Below, piece by piece: positions 51,352 through 56,761 of a DNA stretch of 64,000 nucleotides. The position numbers and the translations under genes are program-made. The notes under the pieces are model-generated. The model was given only the letters and a program-made list of their open reading frames with translations, was not told the DNA's origin and did no database searches. The first letter of the stretch is position 1; each line of letters begins with the position of its first letter. The DNA comes from Anaerolineae bacterium (GTDB lineage Bacteria; Chloroflexota; Anaerolineae; Anaerolineales; Anaerolineaceae), in NCBI GenBank assembly GCA_013314735.1, contig JABUFD010000001.1, positions 868,001 to 932,000 on the forward strand, written 5' to 3'.

Positions 51352-51379
51352 TTGATTTTTGGCAGGTGTGGTATATAAT
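51352..51379 (+). promoter_or_regulatory. Promoter of the glmS leader
   Basis: TTGATT (51352-51357), a 16-base spacer and TATAAT (51374-51379). The transcript would start near 51386 and carry a leader of about 295 bases, which includes the ribozyme. Confidence 0.75.
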
Positions 51380-51459
51380 GATGAAATGTTTGACGGCCCT
51401 TTTTGTGGAAGATGATACTTTACGGAGGATGATATAAGTTCTTTACCTGATCATAGGAT

Positions 51460-51660
51460 ACAAGCGCAAGGCTCAATCGAGTGACGAGGAAGAAGGTTCT
51501 TCACTGCGAAGTGGAGTTAACCGGCAGGTTTGTTCTCACCGACCTCCCGGGAAAATCGAAAGATCAGCGGATGCCTTCCGGACCAATGTCCGATCCTGTG
51601 AATGAAAGCGAAACAAATCTAAATCTTGTACCTGTCAATCGCAGGTATGGTAATGTTTGT
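51460..51660 (+). ncRNA. glmS ribozyme: glmS self-cleaving ribozyme with insertion
   Basis: The leader holds the conserved glmS ribozyme blocks in order: AAGCGC (cleavage expected between A51463 and G51464), a short P1 hairpin (GGCTC-AATC-GAGT), GTGACGAGG directly after it, then an AATCGAAAGATC segment, AGCGGATGCCTTCCGG (51566-51581, the core that binds glucosamine-6-phosphate), and the hairpin GGAC-CAAT-GTCC. Downstream AAACA...TGTTT and ACCTG...CAGGT can form the P4 region. Between GACGAGG and AATCGAAAG about 65 bases are inserted, with at least one hairpin (CTTCACT-GCG-AAGTGGAG). It would shut off glmS when its product accumulates. 3' boundary approximate. Confidence 0.85.
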
Positions 51661-51681
51661 GTATATTCATAGGAGTGGAAT

Positions 51682-53523
51682 ATGTGCGGAATTGTTGGTT
51701 ATGTTGGTGAACGGAATGCGACAGAGATTATCCTGAATGGTCTGCGCCGTTTGGAATACCGTGGGTATGATTCAGCCGGTGTGGCTGTTATTCATGATGG
51801 GCTGATCGAACTTCGGCGTGATGTCGGGAAATTGAACCGACTGTCAGATGTCCTTTTGCGTGATCCGATTGCGGGGAGGATTGGCATTGGACACACCCGG
51901 TGGGCGACTCATGGTGTTCCTTCAGAGCGGAACGCTCATCCCCACCTGGGACAAACCGGCAAGGTTGTGGTTGTTCATAATGGAATTGTTGAGAATTTCA
52001 TCACACTGAAAGAGCAACTGCTAAGTGAGGGCGCTGTATTTAAATCGGATACTGATACCGAAACGATAGTTTTGATGATCGAACGATATATTAACCGGGG
52101 GATGGGGCTTGTGGAGGCGACACAAACCACCCTCAAACAACTTCGTGGTGCTCACGGCGTGGTGGTGCTTTCGGTCGATGAACCAGACAAAATTGTGACG
52201 GCAAGGATTGGTAACGCGGGTGGGGTTGTCATTGGATTTGGCGAGGGCGAAATGTTCGTTGCTTCCGATATCCCGGCAATTCTCGAACATACTCGCCGCA
52301 TGGTTTTCCTGGAATCCCAGCAAATGGCTGTGATCCAGAAAAGTGAAACAAAAATCATGACGTTGGATGGAGAGGCGATTCCGTATGAACCGAGTGTCGT
52401 GGCCTGGGATCCGGTATCGGCAGAAAAAGGCGAATACCGCCATTTTATGCAAAAAGAAATTCATGAGCAGGTGCGCTCATTGACAGATACACTGGCTGGC
52501 CGGGCTGATTTTGAGCGATTTGACATCCAACTGCCGGATTTACACCTGAACGTGGCTGACGTACGGAAAATGGATAAAATTTTCATCACAGCCTGTGGCA
52601 CAGCTGCGCATGCAGGAATGGTAGGGAAAATCCTGATTGAAACAATTGCGCAGATACCTGTGGAGGTGGAGATTGCTTCCGAATTCCGCTACAGGGAACC
52701 ATTGCTGACTGAGAATATGGCTGTGATTGCCATCAGTCAGTCCGGTGAAACAGCAGACACCCTGGCTGCGATGGCGTTGGCGAAGAGTAAAGGGGCGAAG
52801 GTATGGTCTATCGTGAACGCGATCGGCTCTCAGGCGATGCGCGTAGCCGACGGCTTTATTTCGATGCAAACTGGTCCGGAGATTGGCGTGGCTTCGACAA
52901 AAGCATTTACCGCACCGCTGGTTGATCTTTATATGATGGCAGTAGTGTTGGGTGAAATGCGGGGAGTTATAACTGTTCCTGAGAAAAAGGCATACCTGGA
53001 AGCGTTGAGACAGGTGCCTGACCTGGTGAGTCAGACATTGGACCATGAACATGAGGTCGTGGCTGTAGCGGAAATGTTGAAAAATTCGCAACATGCTCTC
53101 TACCTGGGGCGTGGAATTAATATGCCAATCGCTTATGAAGGGGCGTTGAAGCTGAAAGAAATTTCTTATATCCATGCCGAAGGATATCCTGCCGGCGAAA
53201 TGAAGCATGGCCCAATCGCACTCATTGACCAGCAGATGCCAGTTGTGGCAATCTGTCCTCGGGACCAATGGTACGAAAAGATGATCTCCCAGATAGAGCA
53301 GGCCAAAGCCCGTGGCGGGATTATCGTTTCCGTGGCTGAAGCAGGTGATATCCGGGTGGAGAGGCTCTCCGACGCGGTTCTGTGGGTGCCCAAAGCGCAT
53401 TGGTTGTTAAACCCGGTCGTCACAGTCATCCCGTTGCAAATTCTTGCATATCATATTGCTGCTTTGCGTGGCCTGGATGTGGATCAACCGCGGAACCTGG
53501 CCAAGTCCGTTACAGTCGAATAA
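51682..53523 (+). CDS. glmS: Glutamine-fructose-6-phosphate aminotransferase (isomerising)
   Basis: 613 residues, full length. Cys2 is the glutaminase nucleophile (MCGIVGYVG); RRLEYRGYDSAG and GHTRWATHG complete the amidotransferase half (about 1-240). Two SIS domains follow: TACGTAAHAGMVGK with the isomerase site and SQSGETADTLAA, then EISYIHAEGYPAGEMKHGPIAL; the C-terminus ends LAKSVTVE. It makes glucosamine-6-phosphate, the first step towards UDP-GlcNAc for peptidoglycan. AGGAGTGGAAT precedes the ATG, 20 bases after the predicted ribozyme, which should control it by product-triggered mRNA cleavage. Confidence 0.98.
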   Translation: MCGIVGYVGERNATEIILNGLRRLEYRGYDSAGVAVIHDGLIELRRDVGKLNRLSDVLLRDPIAGRIGIGHTRWATHGVPSERNAHPHLGQTGKVVVVHNGIVENFITLKEQLLSEGAVFKSDTDTETIVLMIERYINRGMGLVEATQTTLKQLRGAHGVVVLSVDEPDKIVTARIGNAGGVVIGFGEGEMFVASDIPAILEHTRRMVFLESQQMAVIQKSETKIMTLDGEAIPYEPSVVAWDPVSAEKGEYRHFMQKEIHEQVRSLTDTLAGRADFERFDIQLPDLHLNVADVRKMDKIFITACGTAAHAGMVGKILIETIAQIPVEVEIASEFRYREPLLTENMAVIAISQSGETADTLAAMALAKSKGAKVWSIVNAIGSQAMRVADGFISMQTGPEIGVASTKAFTAPLVDLYMMAVVLGEMRGVITVPEKKAYLEALRQVPDLVSQTLDHEHEVVAVAEMLKNSQHALYLGRGINMPIAYEGALKLKEISYIHAEGYPAGEMKHGPIALIDQQMPVVAICPRDQWYEKMISQIEQAKARGGIIVSVAEAGDIRVERLSDAVLWVPKAHWLLNPVVTVIPLQILAYHIAALRGLDVDQPRNLAKSVTVE

Positions 53524-53558
53524 GGTTTGCATATTGTTTCCCATCGTCCTGTTTCGAG

Positions 53559-53578
53559 TATAATTTCTCAAATGAGAA
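53559..53578 (+). promoter_or_regulatory. -10 element and palindrome before the M42 peptidase genes
   Basis: TATAAT (53559-53564) is followed at once by TTCTCA-AA-TGAGAA (53565-53578), a perfect 6-2-6 palindrome that would cover the transcription start. A weak -35 (TTGTTT) lies 19 bases upstream. The arrangement suits an operator for the three-gene cluster. Confidence 0.45.
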
Positions 53579-53609
53579 TAAATCGAGAAAGTCGAGGAGA
53601 AGACCTGTG

Positions 53610-54692
53610 ATGGAAGATTACCGCGTTCTTGCAAAAGAACTGTGCGACCTTCCAGGATTGTCTGGTTATGAACATCCTGTTCGGGACCGGATTCGTTTAT
53701 CCTGGGAACCGTTGGCAGATGAAGTGTGGGTGAGTCCACTGGGCAGTTTGCATGCAATCAAACATGGATGTGGTGCTGAACCGCGCCGACGTCTTCTGGT
53801 GGCTGCGCATATGGATGCCGTGGGAATGATCGTGACAAAAATTGAGAAGGGTGGATTTTTACGTTTCACCAGTGTTGGCGGTTTGGACCCACGTATACTG
53901 CCGTATCAACCAGTGTGTGTTCTTGGGAGAGAGCTGCTCTCAGGAATCATTGCTGCACCTTCCGAACGGCAACTCCCGGAGTCGTTGCATGGAAAAGCAT
54001 TCCCAATGGAATACCTGTTCATTGACACCGGATTGGATGAAGAGAGGGTGAAATCACTGGTTCATCCTGGCGATATGGTTTCTTTTGCCAACAAGCCAAT
54101 CGATATCGATATGGACACGCTCATGGCACATACACTCGATGACCGGGCATCAGTAGTTGCAGCCACTGTTGCATTGCAGTTGCTACAGAGTCGAAAGCAT
54201 GAATGGGATATTGTTTTTGCTGCGACAGTCCAGGAGGAGGTTGGCTTGAAAGGGGCGAGAACATCAGGATTTCAGGCACAGCCAGATCTTGCGATTGCTG
54301 TTGATGTCGGCTTCGCGAAAGAACCGGGCGCAAGTGGCTACTTCCTGTTGGAACCGGGTTCCGGCCCAGCGATTGCCTGGGGACCAGTTTGTCACCCGGG
54401 TATGGCTGAGATGATTCTGTCCATGGCTGACCAATTGACCATTCCGCATACAAAGGAAATTAATCCATCTGGCAGAACAGGAACGGATGGTGACGCAATC
54501 AGTCTTGTTGGCACGGGCATTCCAACCTCAGTATTCTCAATTCCCTTGCGATTCATGCATTCCCCTGTTGAAATGGTGCGGTATGAAGATATGTACCAGA
54601 CAGGACGTTTGATTGCCGAATTTGCGGCTTCATTGGACAAAGACACGATGCCCAATCTTCTCCACGATGATACAGCGGATGAGGAGGAATGA
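53610..54692 (+). CDS. M42-family metallo-aminopeptidase (first of three)
   Basis: 360 residues from the ATG at 53610 (GAGGAG ten bases upstream). Two-metal ligands: VAAHMDAVG (HxD) near residue 70, HTLDDRAS (bridging Asp), TVQEEVGLKGA (catalytic and metal Glu pair), IAVDVGF, and the last His in LRFMHSPVEM. These cytosolic enzymes form large hollow complexes (TET-like) that trim peptides. It differs clearly from its two neighbours, so the three may assemble hetero-oligomers or cover different residues. Confidence 0.92.
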   Translation: MEDYRVLAKELCDLPGLSGYEHPVRDRIRLSWEPLADEVWVSPLGSLHAIKHGCGAEPRRRLLVAAHMDAVGMIVTKIEKGGFLRFTSVGGLDPRILPYQPVCVLGRELLSGIIAAPSERQLPESLHGKAFPMEYLFIDTGLDEERVKSLVHPGDMVSFANKPIDIDMDTLMAHTLDDRASVVAATVALQLLQSRKHEWDIVFAATVQEEVGLKGARTSGFQAQPDLAIAVDVGFAKEPGASGYFLLEPGSGPAIAWGPVCHPGMAEMILSMADQLTIPHTKEINPSGRTGTDGDAISLVGTGIPTSVFSIPLRFMHSPVEMVRYEDMYQTGRLIAEFAASLDKDTMPNLLHDDTADEEE

Positions 54693-54693
54693 A

Positions 54694-55752
54694 ATGACGC
54701 AATGTATTACTCCTGAAATGATCGGTTTGTTAGAAAGACTTTGCAATGCCGATGGCGCACCTGGCAATGAACGGGAGGTCAGGCAAATCATTGCCAACGA
54801 AATTCGTGATGTTGTGGATTCCATCGAAGTTGACCAAATGGGCAACCTGATTGCCAGCGTTACAAACGGCCAACCCAGGAAGAAGGTTATGCTTGCCGCC
54901 CACATGGATGAAGTGGGTTTCATGGTCGTGAAAACGGGAGATGATGAGTTTTTTGAGTTCCGCTCCCTGGGGGGGATCGACCCAAAAATTTTACCCGCCA
55001 AAACGATTCGGATTGGGAAAGATAAGTTTACGGGTGTTATCAGCCCTCGTACCGCCCATTTGACAACAACCGAGGAACGAAAATCTGTAGTTCCGCTTGA
55101 TAAATTACAAATTACCGTTGGCTCTTCGCATAAAAAGAAAGTGGTACCAGGTGATTATGCCTGTTTTGACACTCCATTTGTCGCTTCAGAGGGTGTCATC
55201 ACGGCCAAGGCCCTCGATGACCGTGTGGGGTGTGCCAATGTGATCTGGCTTCTTAAACATCCGCCAGCTGATACCGAGTTATTTGGGGTTTTTACCGTGC
55301 AGGAGGAATTGGGATTGCGCGGAGCCGGGGTGAGTGCGTTCCGTGTTAATCCTGATCTGGCGCTTGTGTTCGATACAACCCCTGCTGTTGAACCACCACT
55401 CTTGGATGATGATGACTTGAACGTGCAATATAACGTTCAGACAGGAAAAGGTCCTGCCATCTATACCTTGGACGCCAGCCAGGTGCATTTCGAACCTTTC
55501 ATCCAGTTGTTTGTGAGTGTGGCGGAATCTCTTGGTCTCCACTACCAGTTGCGTCAACCAGGTGCGGGTGGAACTGATTCAGGCGCAATCCACCTGCAAC
55601 GTGCGGGTATCTACAGTCAATCAATTTCTGTGCCCGTGCGTTATTTGCATACACCACGGGGAATGATGCGAATCTCCGACTGGGAAGAGACCCTGAAGCT
55701 GATCGAGGCTGTCTTAAACAAATTACCAGAATTTGATCCACGGGAGAAGTAG
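54694..55752 (+). CDS. M42-family metallo-aminopeptidase (second of three)
   Basis: 352 residues; the ATG at 54694 lies just after the stop of the first peptidase with GAGGAGG in front. Ligand motifs: LAAHMDEVGF, KALDDRVGC, TVQEELGLRGA, LVFDTTPA and RYLHTPRGM. The usual PA/insert domain (about 70-170) carries LGGIDPKILPAKTIRI. Tight gene packing shows co-transcription with the first and third copies. Confidence 0.92.
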   Translation: MTQCITPEMIGLLERLCNADGAPGNEREVRQIIANEIRDVVDSIEVDQMGNLIASVTNGQPRKKVMLAAHMDEVGFMVVKTGDDEFFEFRSLGGIDPKILPAKTIRIGKDKFTGVISPRTAHLTTTEERKSVVPLDKLQITVGSSHKKKVVPGDYACFDTPFVASEGVITAKALDDRVGCANVIWLLKHPPADTELFGVFTVQEELGLRGAGVSAFRVNPDLALVFDTTPAVEPPLLDDDDLNVQYNVQTGKGPAIYTLDASQVHFEPFIQLFVSVAESLGLHYQLRQPGAGGTDSGAIHLQRAGIYSQSISVPVRYLHTPRGMMRISDWEETLKLIEAVLNKLPEFDPREK

Positions 55753-55753
55753 A

Positions 55754-56761
55754 ATGAAAACCTTGTTGAAGATATTGACAGAATGTGCAAGCCCTACCGG
55801 CCGCGAACTGCCGATTCGAAACCTGATCCGGTCGATGGTGGAGAGCCTGGCTGATGAAGTAAGTGTTGATGTGATGGGAAACCTGATCGCCCGGAAGGGA
55901 TCGCTTCAGCCGGGTGGGATGAAGATCATGTTATCCGCACATATTGATGAAATTGGGATTGCGGTAACCCATGTTGACGATAACGGGTTTGTCCGCTTTA
56001 CAAATGTCGGGGGTGTGCGCCCCTATACCTGTTATAGTGGAAGGGTTCGATTTTCGGATGGCACAGTAGGTGTGATTGGCATGGAACCAACCACATCGGT
56101 AACAGAAGTGCAGCCATTGTCGAAAATGTATATCGATGTTGGTGCAACGAACCCTGCAGATTGCCCGGTTTCGGTCGGTGATTTTGGCGTTTTTGACAGA
56201 CCTTTTGCCGAATTGGGCAATGGGCGAATTGTCTCGAAAGCAATGGATGACCGAGCTGGTGCCGCGGTTTTGGTCCGTTTGCTGGAAATGATGCCTGAGA
56301 ATCCACACGAAATTTATTTTGTGTTCAGCACGCAGGAAGAAGTCGGCCTGCGAGGCGCAAGGACCGCTGCTTATCATATCGATCCAGACCTGGGAATCGC
56401 GCTTGATGTTACTTTGACAGGGGACACACCCAAGTCGGCAACAATGGATGTCGCTTTGGGGAAGGGCCCGGCAATTAAAGTAAAAGATAGTGGGATGATA
56501 TCCAGCCCGGCGCTGGTCAGATACCTGACGGAAATTGCTGTGAAAGAGGAAATTCCATATCAGATGGAGGTTCTGACGGGCGGTACCACGGATGCGGCAG
56601 CCATCCAGGTTTCCAGGGGAGGGGTTCCTTCTGGTTGTATCTCAATTCCATGCCGGTATGTTCATTCACCCTCCGAGGTGGTGGACCTGGCAGATATGGA
56701 AAATGCAGTTCGATTACTGGTCGCTGCCCTCGGACAATCGATTTTGTTGGGTGACGCCTGA
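55754..56761 (+). CDS. M42-family metallo-aminopeptidase (third of three)
   Basis: 335 residues; GGAGAAG stands before the ATG, which follows the stop of the second copy by one base. Ligand motifs: LSAHIDEIGI, KAMDDRAGAA, STQEEVGLRGA, IALDVTLTGD and RYVHSPSEVV. Slightly shorter than the other two. The conserved GGTTDAAAI near residue 280, before the final His, is typical of the FrvX/YsdC group. Confidence 0.92.
   Translation: MKTLLKILTECASPTGRELPIRNLIRSMVESLADEVSVDVMGNLIARKGSLQPGGMKIMLSAHIDEIGIAVTHVDDNGFVRFTNVGGVRPYTCYSGRVRFSDGTVGVIGMEPTTSVTEVQPLSKMYIDVGATNPADCPVSVGDFGVFDRPFAELGNGRIVSKAMDDRAGAAVLVRLLEMMPENPHEIYFVFSTQEEVGLRGARTAAYHIDPDLGIALDVTLTGDTPKSATMDVALGKGPAIKVKDSGMISSPALVRYLTEIAVKEEIPYQMEVLTGGTTDAAAIQVSRGGVPSGCISIPCRYVHSPSEVVDLADMENAVRLLVAALGQSILLGDA

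Follow-up and report, generated by a model that had tools for sequence, protein, structure and literature searches.

A glmS-class ribozyme, judged by sequence, with a two-hairpin insert before glmS in a chloroflexote, and its diverged relatives before glnA

The window analysed here is a stretch of 64,000 nucleotides of chloroflexote DNA, and the region of interest is the leader of its glmS gene (Table 1). The GlmS open reading frame begins with an ATG at 51682, which agrees with the initial annotation, where a glmS ribozyme was placed directly before glmS. Two promoter-like candidates precede the leader (the second at 51352-51379), compared with a shuffle mean of 0.7. A terminator-like hairpin lies at 51626-51650, between P3 and the Shine-Dalgarno (SD) region (one found, shuffle mean 0.2). 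After glmS, at 53382-56761, follow three successive, mutually similar ORFs resembling M42-type aminopeptidases; the middle one, the sole ORF compared with NCBIfam models, matches aminopeptidase models below their cut-offs.

Table 1. Features of the glmS leader and their coordinates in the window.
Feature	Position	Strand	Evidence or remark
Promoter-like TTGACG-N18-GATACT	51390..51419	+	consensus match only
P0 5' strand UCAUAGGAU	51451..51459	+	upstream of cleavage site; 9 bp with 51593-51601
Predicted cleavage site A(-1)/G1	51463..51464	+	alignment to RF00234 and 41 other glmS-linked leaders
P2.2 5' strand C2-G7	51465..51470	+	alignment A1, pair counts
P2.2 pairs	C51465-G51569, G51466-C51568, C51467-G51567, G51470-C51565		A51468/A51469 opposite A51566
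P1, 4 bp, loop AAUC	51471..51482	+	family: 5/6 counted P1 pairs changed on both sides
GACGAGG core block	51483..51489	+	RF00234 match; identical letters in 47/48 glmS-linked copies
P2.1	C51485-A51487 with U51556-G51558	+	
P2 5' strand GAAGG	51492..51496	+	pairs with 51574-51578 CCUUC
Insert hairpin H1, 7 bp, GCGA tetraloop	51499..51516	+	7/7 pairs changed on both sides, 97.9% of cells paired (n = 42)
Linker UUAA	51517..51520	+	CUAA or UUAA in most A1 rows
Insert hairpin H2 (CCGG...CCGG)	51521..51550	+	4/4 counted pairs changed on both sides, 99.4% of cells paired
GAAAAUCGA block (A42 U43 C44 G45 A46)	51551..51559	+	RF00234 match, core pattern, alignment
CAGCGGAUGCCUUC, P2.2 3' strand, G56, G57, P2 3' strand	51565..51578	+	RF00234 match, core pattern, alignment
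P3 hairpin CGGAC/GUCCG, loop CAAU	51579..51592	+	sequence and fold
P0 3' strand AUCCUGUGA	51593..51601	+	pairs with 51451..51459
Anti-SD strand, alternative partner	51594..51604	+	11 bp with 51664-51674; overlaps P0
SD region UAUUCAUAGGAG	51664..51675	+	sequence
glmS	51682..53523	+	TIGR01135, 775.5 bits (cut-off 418.05)

On the forward strand, the RNA from 51463 to 51592 upstream of glmS is, by its sequence, a glmS-class ribozyme with an insert, in a chloroflexote. The conserved glmS blocks recognised in the initial annotation do follow one another in order: AGCGC at 51463-51467, GUGACGAGG at 51481-51489, AAUCGA at 51554-51559, AGCGGAUGCCUUCCGG at 51566-51581 and a GGAC/GUCC hairpin. A scan of the leader (371 nt against 4227 Rfam families) returned the family named there, RF00234, with 25.3 bits and an E-value of 3.9e-4, the alignment spanning window positions 51452-51683 and model positions 1-167; in a genome-wide RF00234 search the window match had an E-value of 9.8e-4. 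The assignment to RF00234 thus stood in E-value, although in score the match lies under the Rfam gathering score of 37 bits, which is the curators' threshold and no feature of the RNA. Because of this shortfall, a default Rfam scan of the window returns tRNA alone and misses the ribozyme. A covariance model built from 25 relatives (R1; 24 glnA-linked sequences and L067, whose target is unassigned), in which the window sequence is absent, gave 61.5 bits and an E-value of 1.8e-16, a rough value given the short calibration. The core contains the double pseudoknot P2/P2.1/P2.2 with G1, C2, G3, ACGAGG, AUCG and GCGG, one P2.2 position being unpaired. Folding of the whole leader gave a z-score of -2.14 by single-sequence folding, in which a pseudoknotted core cannot appear. 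Alignment to RF00234 and to other glmS-linked leaders places the predicted cut between A51463 and G51464, where it had been put before, and the short P1 of four pairs (51471-51474 with 51479-51482) is likewise as first described.

A sample of 61 genomes (the host genome and 60 relatives) was searched with RF00234. Matches at E-values up to 1 were found in 54 of the 61 genomes and above the gathering score in 17. There were 81 matches in total: 48 before a GlmS ORF, 27 before a GlnA ORF and six before neither, with distances from match end to ORF of -2 to 286 nt for GlmS and 94 to 204 nt for GlnA. With positions numbered after PMC7125110, whose part available to us lists substitutions at G1, C2, G3, A27, C28, G56 and G57 as non-cleaving, a core pattern fixing these same positions fits 79 of the 81 matches; a first, stricter pattern had fitted 73, after which the pattern was widened and the searched stretch enlarged. 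The two weakest matches (L081 and L082, E-values 0.711 and 0.884), which fall outside the core pattern, were taken as chance.

By core numbering, P2.2 of the window pairs C2-G56, G3-C55, C4-G54 and G7-C52 and has A5 and A6 opposite A53, an imperfection found in the same form in 8 of the 48 glmS-linked copies. P2.1 joins positions 28-30 with 43-45, and P2 is GAAGG/CCUUC. The insertion announced between the GACGAGG and AATCGA blocks is present, but it measures about 52 nt (51499-51550) and not about 65, and where at least one stable hairpin had been noted there are two, both covarying in relatives. It occupies the gap between positions 40 and 42 in the order H1, UUAA, H2, followed by GAAAAUCGA. 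Alignment with other glmS leaders, which the initial annotation had proposed, was carried out on 42 of the 48 glmS-linked leaders, window included (A1; L004, L017, L021, L058, L076 and L078 were left out for a long P1, insert or loop), and both core and insert helices covary in it. Across P1, P2, P2.1, P2.2, H1 and H2, 97.7% of cells are paired, and 221 cells carry changes on both sides; shuffling gives a mean of 56.9, and sliding the structure gives 14 to 57. All 11 counted pairs of the insert show compensatory changes (H1 7/7, H2 4/4; n = 42), and the insert is therefore a conserved structural module rather than a quirk. Outside the order of the window the insert was recognised by eye in 13 of 20 loci (L236-L255); the other seven have no two-hairpin insert, L240, L241, L242, L244, L253 and L255 being short and L254 carrying a different insertion. 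A GlmS ORF follows in 19 of these 20 loci, and none was recognised at L250.

Neither of the peripheral elements P3.1 and P4/P4.1 was found in the window copy: P3.1 was not recognised, the P3 loop of 4 nt being read as too short for the pseudoknot, and a crude scan revealed no P4.1-like hairpin there. The same scan was positive in 4 of the 48 glmS-linked and 17 of the 27 glnA-linked copies, and it undercounts P4.1, as this helix has 87.8% of cells paired in the alignment of glnA-linked sequences described below. PMC11602151 describes the P3/P4 domain as a stabiliser of the core and locates the active site in P1-P2. The insert and P0, a helix bridging the cleavage site, may substitute for the missing P3/P4 periphery.

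P0 is a covarying helix between the strand 5' of the cut and the segment after P3, and it is present in both the glmS- and the glnA-linked lineages; in the Rfam RF00234 consensus the 5' positions that form it are unpaired. Among the 48 glmS-linked leaders it takes the form of 43 different helices, reaching at least 6 bp in 41, and its mean score of 17.26 against 13.1 (sd 0.35) was attained by none of 20,000 permutations, in which kinship was not removed. In the glnA-linked leaders, 23 of 27 have at least 6 bp, with a mean score of 15.52 against 14.15 that was attained by 1 of 20,000 permutations, kinship again not removed; on alignment A2, described below, 86.3% of P0 cells are paired, with changes on both sides at five of seven pairs. 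As an observation of its own, a further long-range helix appears in glnA-linked leaders (for example L005, L012 and L052), where CCCUUCC right after P0 can pair with a GGAAGGG that follows the P4 domain, or CCCUUUC with GAAAGGG in variants; in 24 of the 27 leaders 6 bp or more match perfectly, and the observed mean was reached by 1 of 5000 permutations.

The diverged ribozyme before glnA occurs in 27 of the 61 genomes, once in each and with the host included, and 23 of these 27 also have a glmS-linked match in the list. The host copy (G000:C4:9368-9601, minus strand) is a partial match to RF00234 with 23.8 bits, and scores 100.5 bits with an E-value of 4.3e-29 against R1, of which it is not a member. 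It precedes a gene for a GlnA of 445 aa (TIGR00653, 538.2 bits), its insert is longer, and its position -1 is G instead of A, a G found in 2 of the 27 glnA-linked copies. A second glnA of the host (G000:C9:272285-273679) has no ribozyme match nearby in the R1 search of the host genome, which beyond the two ribozymes returned just a weak match elsewhere (E 0.784). Four of the five glnA leaders scanned reach the RF00234 gathering score (L005 53.1, L007 42.9, L008 41.8 and L012 40.3 bits), while the host leader, L033, does not. The glutamine riboswitch RF01739, named in PMC3766115, is called after glnA but is a different RNA family; it was not seen at its gathering score in the nine loci scanned, five of them before glnA, and four of the five glnA leaders match RF00234 instead.

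The glnA-linked lineage belongs to RF00234 by the four leaders at gathering score, and it keeps the P2.1 and P2.2 pairs of the core. Alignments A2 and A3 comprise 25 of the 31 sequences that are not glmS-linked, 24 of them glnA-linked (L033, L052, L056, L071, L079 and L080 were left out). In A2 (n = 25), P2.1 has 100% of cells paired, P2.2 98.4%, P3.1 82.6%, P4 76.0%, P4.1 87.8% and the whole structure 91.6%; changes on both sides occur in 233 cells, compared with 73.7 after shuffling. The P2.2 strand reads GCG-G-CUG or GCG-A-CUG opposite CAGCG in 25 of the 27 copies, which can be drawn with a bulge at position 4 and the pairs C5-G54 and U6-A53, and GCGUAUG in the other two. Among the glmS-linked copies, 30 of 48 have GCGC-A-UG opposite CAGCG, with a bulge at position 5 and U6-A53, and C5 faces G53 in 6 of 48. 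Bulge-shifted forms of P2.2 were deduced from double mutants in the part of PMC7125110 available to us, and the copies described here would be natural cases of them. Position 26 is variable among glnA-linked copies, 10 of 27 having a base other than G. When 77 of the 79 core sequences were placed on a tree (joined core pieces with only the initial 22 nt of each insert; L071 and L078 left out), the 47 glmS-linked and 30 other copies separate without error, with a support of 0.868.

Several copies have neither gene directly downstream. L079 stops at a contig end, and no target gene was recognised downstream of L080 or of L067, which is L108 in the named record. The latter, from Longilinea arvoryzae, is a third ribozyme copy in one genome, of glnA type though not before glnA. 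L071, in genome G057 upstream of glutamate synthase-like ORFs, is also of glnA type; a much longer stretch replaces its insert, another long one precedes CAGCGG, and its motif GGUGAAAGUCCGG looks unlike H1/H2.

The suggestion that the ribozyme, best known from Firmicutes, ranges into Chloroflexota was supported, and the range is wider than had been supposed: the glmS-leader model has matches at E-values up to 1e-3 in 129 of 400 genomes drawn from the phylum, copies without the insert included, and the second lineage before glnA comes in addition. R1 matches 215 of 251 genomes of the order at E-values up to 1e-6, which is no count of glnA leaders since R1 also recognises glmS leaders. Named genomes contain at least 119 stretches with the core-type pattern. 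The 80 loci among the matches listed are all titled Chloroflexota or groups within it, save three titled Candidatus Bipolaricaulota; a GlnA-like ORF starts within 900 nt in 43 of them, a GlmS-like ORF in 10 and neither in 27. Among these 27, nine have an Ada/Ogt-like protein and/or an EamA transporter, followed by glnA in all six loci that are complete (L129, L142, L149, L158, L161, L162; L092, L101 and L163 end early). Seven show glutamate synthase similarity (L093, L098, L114, L119, L127, L144 and L086, where it begins 1102 nt on, with other ORFs between). The remainder consists of three with a GTPase-SIS protein, one with a DegT aminotransferase, one unrecognised (L108) and six at a contig end before any readable gene. 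Glutamate synthase similarity is also found downstream of copies in G057 (L071) and G154 (L273); the name rests on PF01645 in L144 and on likeness to L144. Among named species, Levilinea saccharolytica KIBI-1 (L155), of the Anaerolineaceae in the Chloroflexota, and Bellilinea caldifistulae GOMI-1 (L145) have the ribozyme before glnA.

Some of these gene contexts merit mention in their own right. The order ribozyme, Ada/Ogt-like gene, EamA transporter, glnA is conserved in L158, L129, L142, L161 and L162. The three loci titled Candidatus Bipolaricaulota (L123, L137, L146) have a ribozyme of GCGCAUG form, located 224-262 nt upstream of a fused GTPase-SIS protein; these proteins are 97-99% identical to each other, and the SIS part of that in L137 resembles MurQ models, with scores under their cut-offs. 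In L138 a GCGCACG-form ribozyme precedes a DegT/DnrJ aminotransferase and an oxidoreductase-like ORF, possibly amino-sugar genes.

Taken as a whole, we consider it very probable that this leader contains a self-cleaving ribozyme of the glmS class, belonging to a sub-lineage of the Chloroflexota, with glucosamine-6-phosphate (GlcN6P) as cofactor, a glmS message that is off after the cut, and feedback on glnA and glutamate synthase. The sub-threshold Rfam score, the partial RF00234 match of the host glnA leader and its G at -1, the imperfect P2.2, the four-pair P1 and the unrecognised P3.1 and P4.1 weigh against this view. The homology, the conserved core, the covarying insert module, P0, the unrecognised P4.1 and the glnA twin were observed directly, and from them we infer cleavage, the GlcN6P ligand, the off-step and the regulation. 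GlcN6P would bind the double-pseudoknot core and serve as cofactor, the RNA would cut between A51463 and G51464, and the glmS message would then be switched off, most likely through decay of the 5'-OH mRNA by an RNase J-family protein of the host. The 3' strand of P0 is complementary to the SD region, and its release may contribute. The host genome encodes a TIGR00649 protein (540.4 bits), which we take to be of the RNase J family, so that the RNase J decay route would be open there too. The part of PMC7125110 available to us describes GlcN6P as the cleavage cofactor and RNase J1 as the enzyme that degrades the 3' product.

Since the strand after P3 pairs in P0 and is also complementary to the SD region of its own leader, the cut could free an anti-SD strand. 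Carried further, this gives an alternative off-step, in which the uncut P0 holds the anti-SD strand and the cut frees the P0 5' strand, so that 51594-51604 pairs with the SD region and blocks glmS translation. The two helices overlap in the window and are mutually exclusive, and across the 48 glmS leaders the strand after P3 and the SD region of the same leader have a complementarity of 14.75 against 13.39 (sd 0.32), reached by none of 5000 permutations and none of 200 shuffles, with kinship not removed. However, by folding without pseudoknots the mean unpaired probability of the SD is 0.144 in both the uncut and the cut RNA, and the anti-SD form beats P0 by 3.3 kcal/mol even when uncut. Furthermore, the SD complementarity of the glnA leaders was reached by 894 of 5000 permutations, though by 0 of 200 shuffles, and an in-gene control region is also in small excess, reached by 3 of 100 shuffles for glmS and 18 of 100 for glnA. 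Such a translation switch therefore seems doubtful to us, and decay of the cleaved message is the preferred off-step.

The copies linked to glnA and glutamate synthase could instead have changed their ligand to some other amine metabolite, with the glmS-linked copy keeping GlcN6P. Their separate group in the tree is compatible with this, as are the differences in P2.2 and gene context from the glmS-linked copies, yet the AAAAUCG, CAGCGG and ACGAGG blocks are identical in both lineages, and we regard a change of ligand as unlikely. Less likely still is that the window RNA is a slow or non-cleaving descendant that merely binds GlcN6P, or is decaying, and exerts weak regulation. The unrecognised P3.1 and P4.1, the imperfect P2.2 and the 4-bp P1 of the window copy could be read in that way, but the positions with mutants listed as non-cleaving are kept, and so are the family helices, with compensatory changes. 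Chance likeness to the core blocks, which the sub-threshold Rfam score might suggest, has a negligible probability and is refuted by the R1 match, obtained with a model built without the window sequence; the position directly before glmS and the covariation in relatives also speak against it.

In the reading that we prefer, with GlcN6P as cofactor, the copies before glnA and glutamate synthase would let GlcN6P throttle ammonia assimilation. GlcN6P is made from glutamine, so a surplus of it would be expected to lower GS-GOGAT in a feedback. A fuller scheme can be put forward tentatively, as plausible if somewhat short of probable. The glmS ribozyme would have been duplicated in Chloroflexota and put to use in ammonia assimilation, its paralogues before glnA and glutamate synthase would self-cleave with GlcN6P or with a changed ligand, and the result would be a protein-free throttle of GS-GOGAT in which an amino-sugar phosphate reports nitrogen surplus; bulge-shifted P2.2 and a P0 across the cleavage site form part of it, and in glmS leaders the cut itself could release an anti-SD strand. 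If a ribozyme lineage does act before glnA and glutamate synthase, a ribozyme would be reading GlcN6P as a signal for nitrogen, and confirmation at the bench would carry this RNA switch beyond cell-wall sugars into nitrogen use.

Compared with the Bacillus/Thermoanaerobacter form of RF00234, the window copy has core blocks with the same letters in the same order, and it shares the P2/P2.1/P2.2 pairing, the context of the cleavage site and the location before glmS. It differs in the module of two hairpins, 52 nt long, that lies between P2 and P2.1, in a P0 that uses sequence 5' of the cut, in the 4-bp P1, in the unrecognised P3.1 and P4.1 and in A5/A6 opposite A53 in P2.2. Other families of the Chloroflexota have short ribozymes (L240, L241, L242) that share the core of the window copy and likewise precede glmS; they are without the two-hairpin insert and show a P4.1-like hairpin readable by eye. 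To our knowledge, glmS ribozymes are regarded as dedicated to glmS. In 2011 McCown et al. reportedly counted 463 glmS ribozymes, only two of which lay outside glmS mRNAs, and are said to have described Deinococcus-Thermus variants with additional stems within the core. The literature that we searched, to which the McCown study does not belong, yielded no account of glmS ribozymes linked to glnA or gltB, and the portions of PMC2258182, PMC3766115, PMC4342826, PMC6154101, PMC9495366 and PMC11602151 available to us have nothing on them. Because RF00234 itself recovers some glnA-linked leaders, copies of this kind may already be present, without comment, in the full alignment of the family. P0 would be a natural case of a helix bridging the cleavage site. 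In one locus (L006), a glycine riboswitch (RF00504, 57.7 bits) lies at 1739-1835, near the glmS ribozyme and on the opposite strand.
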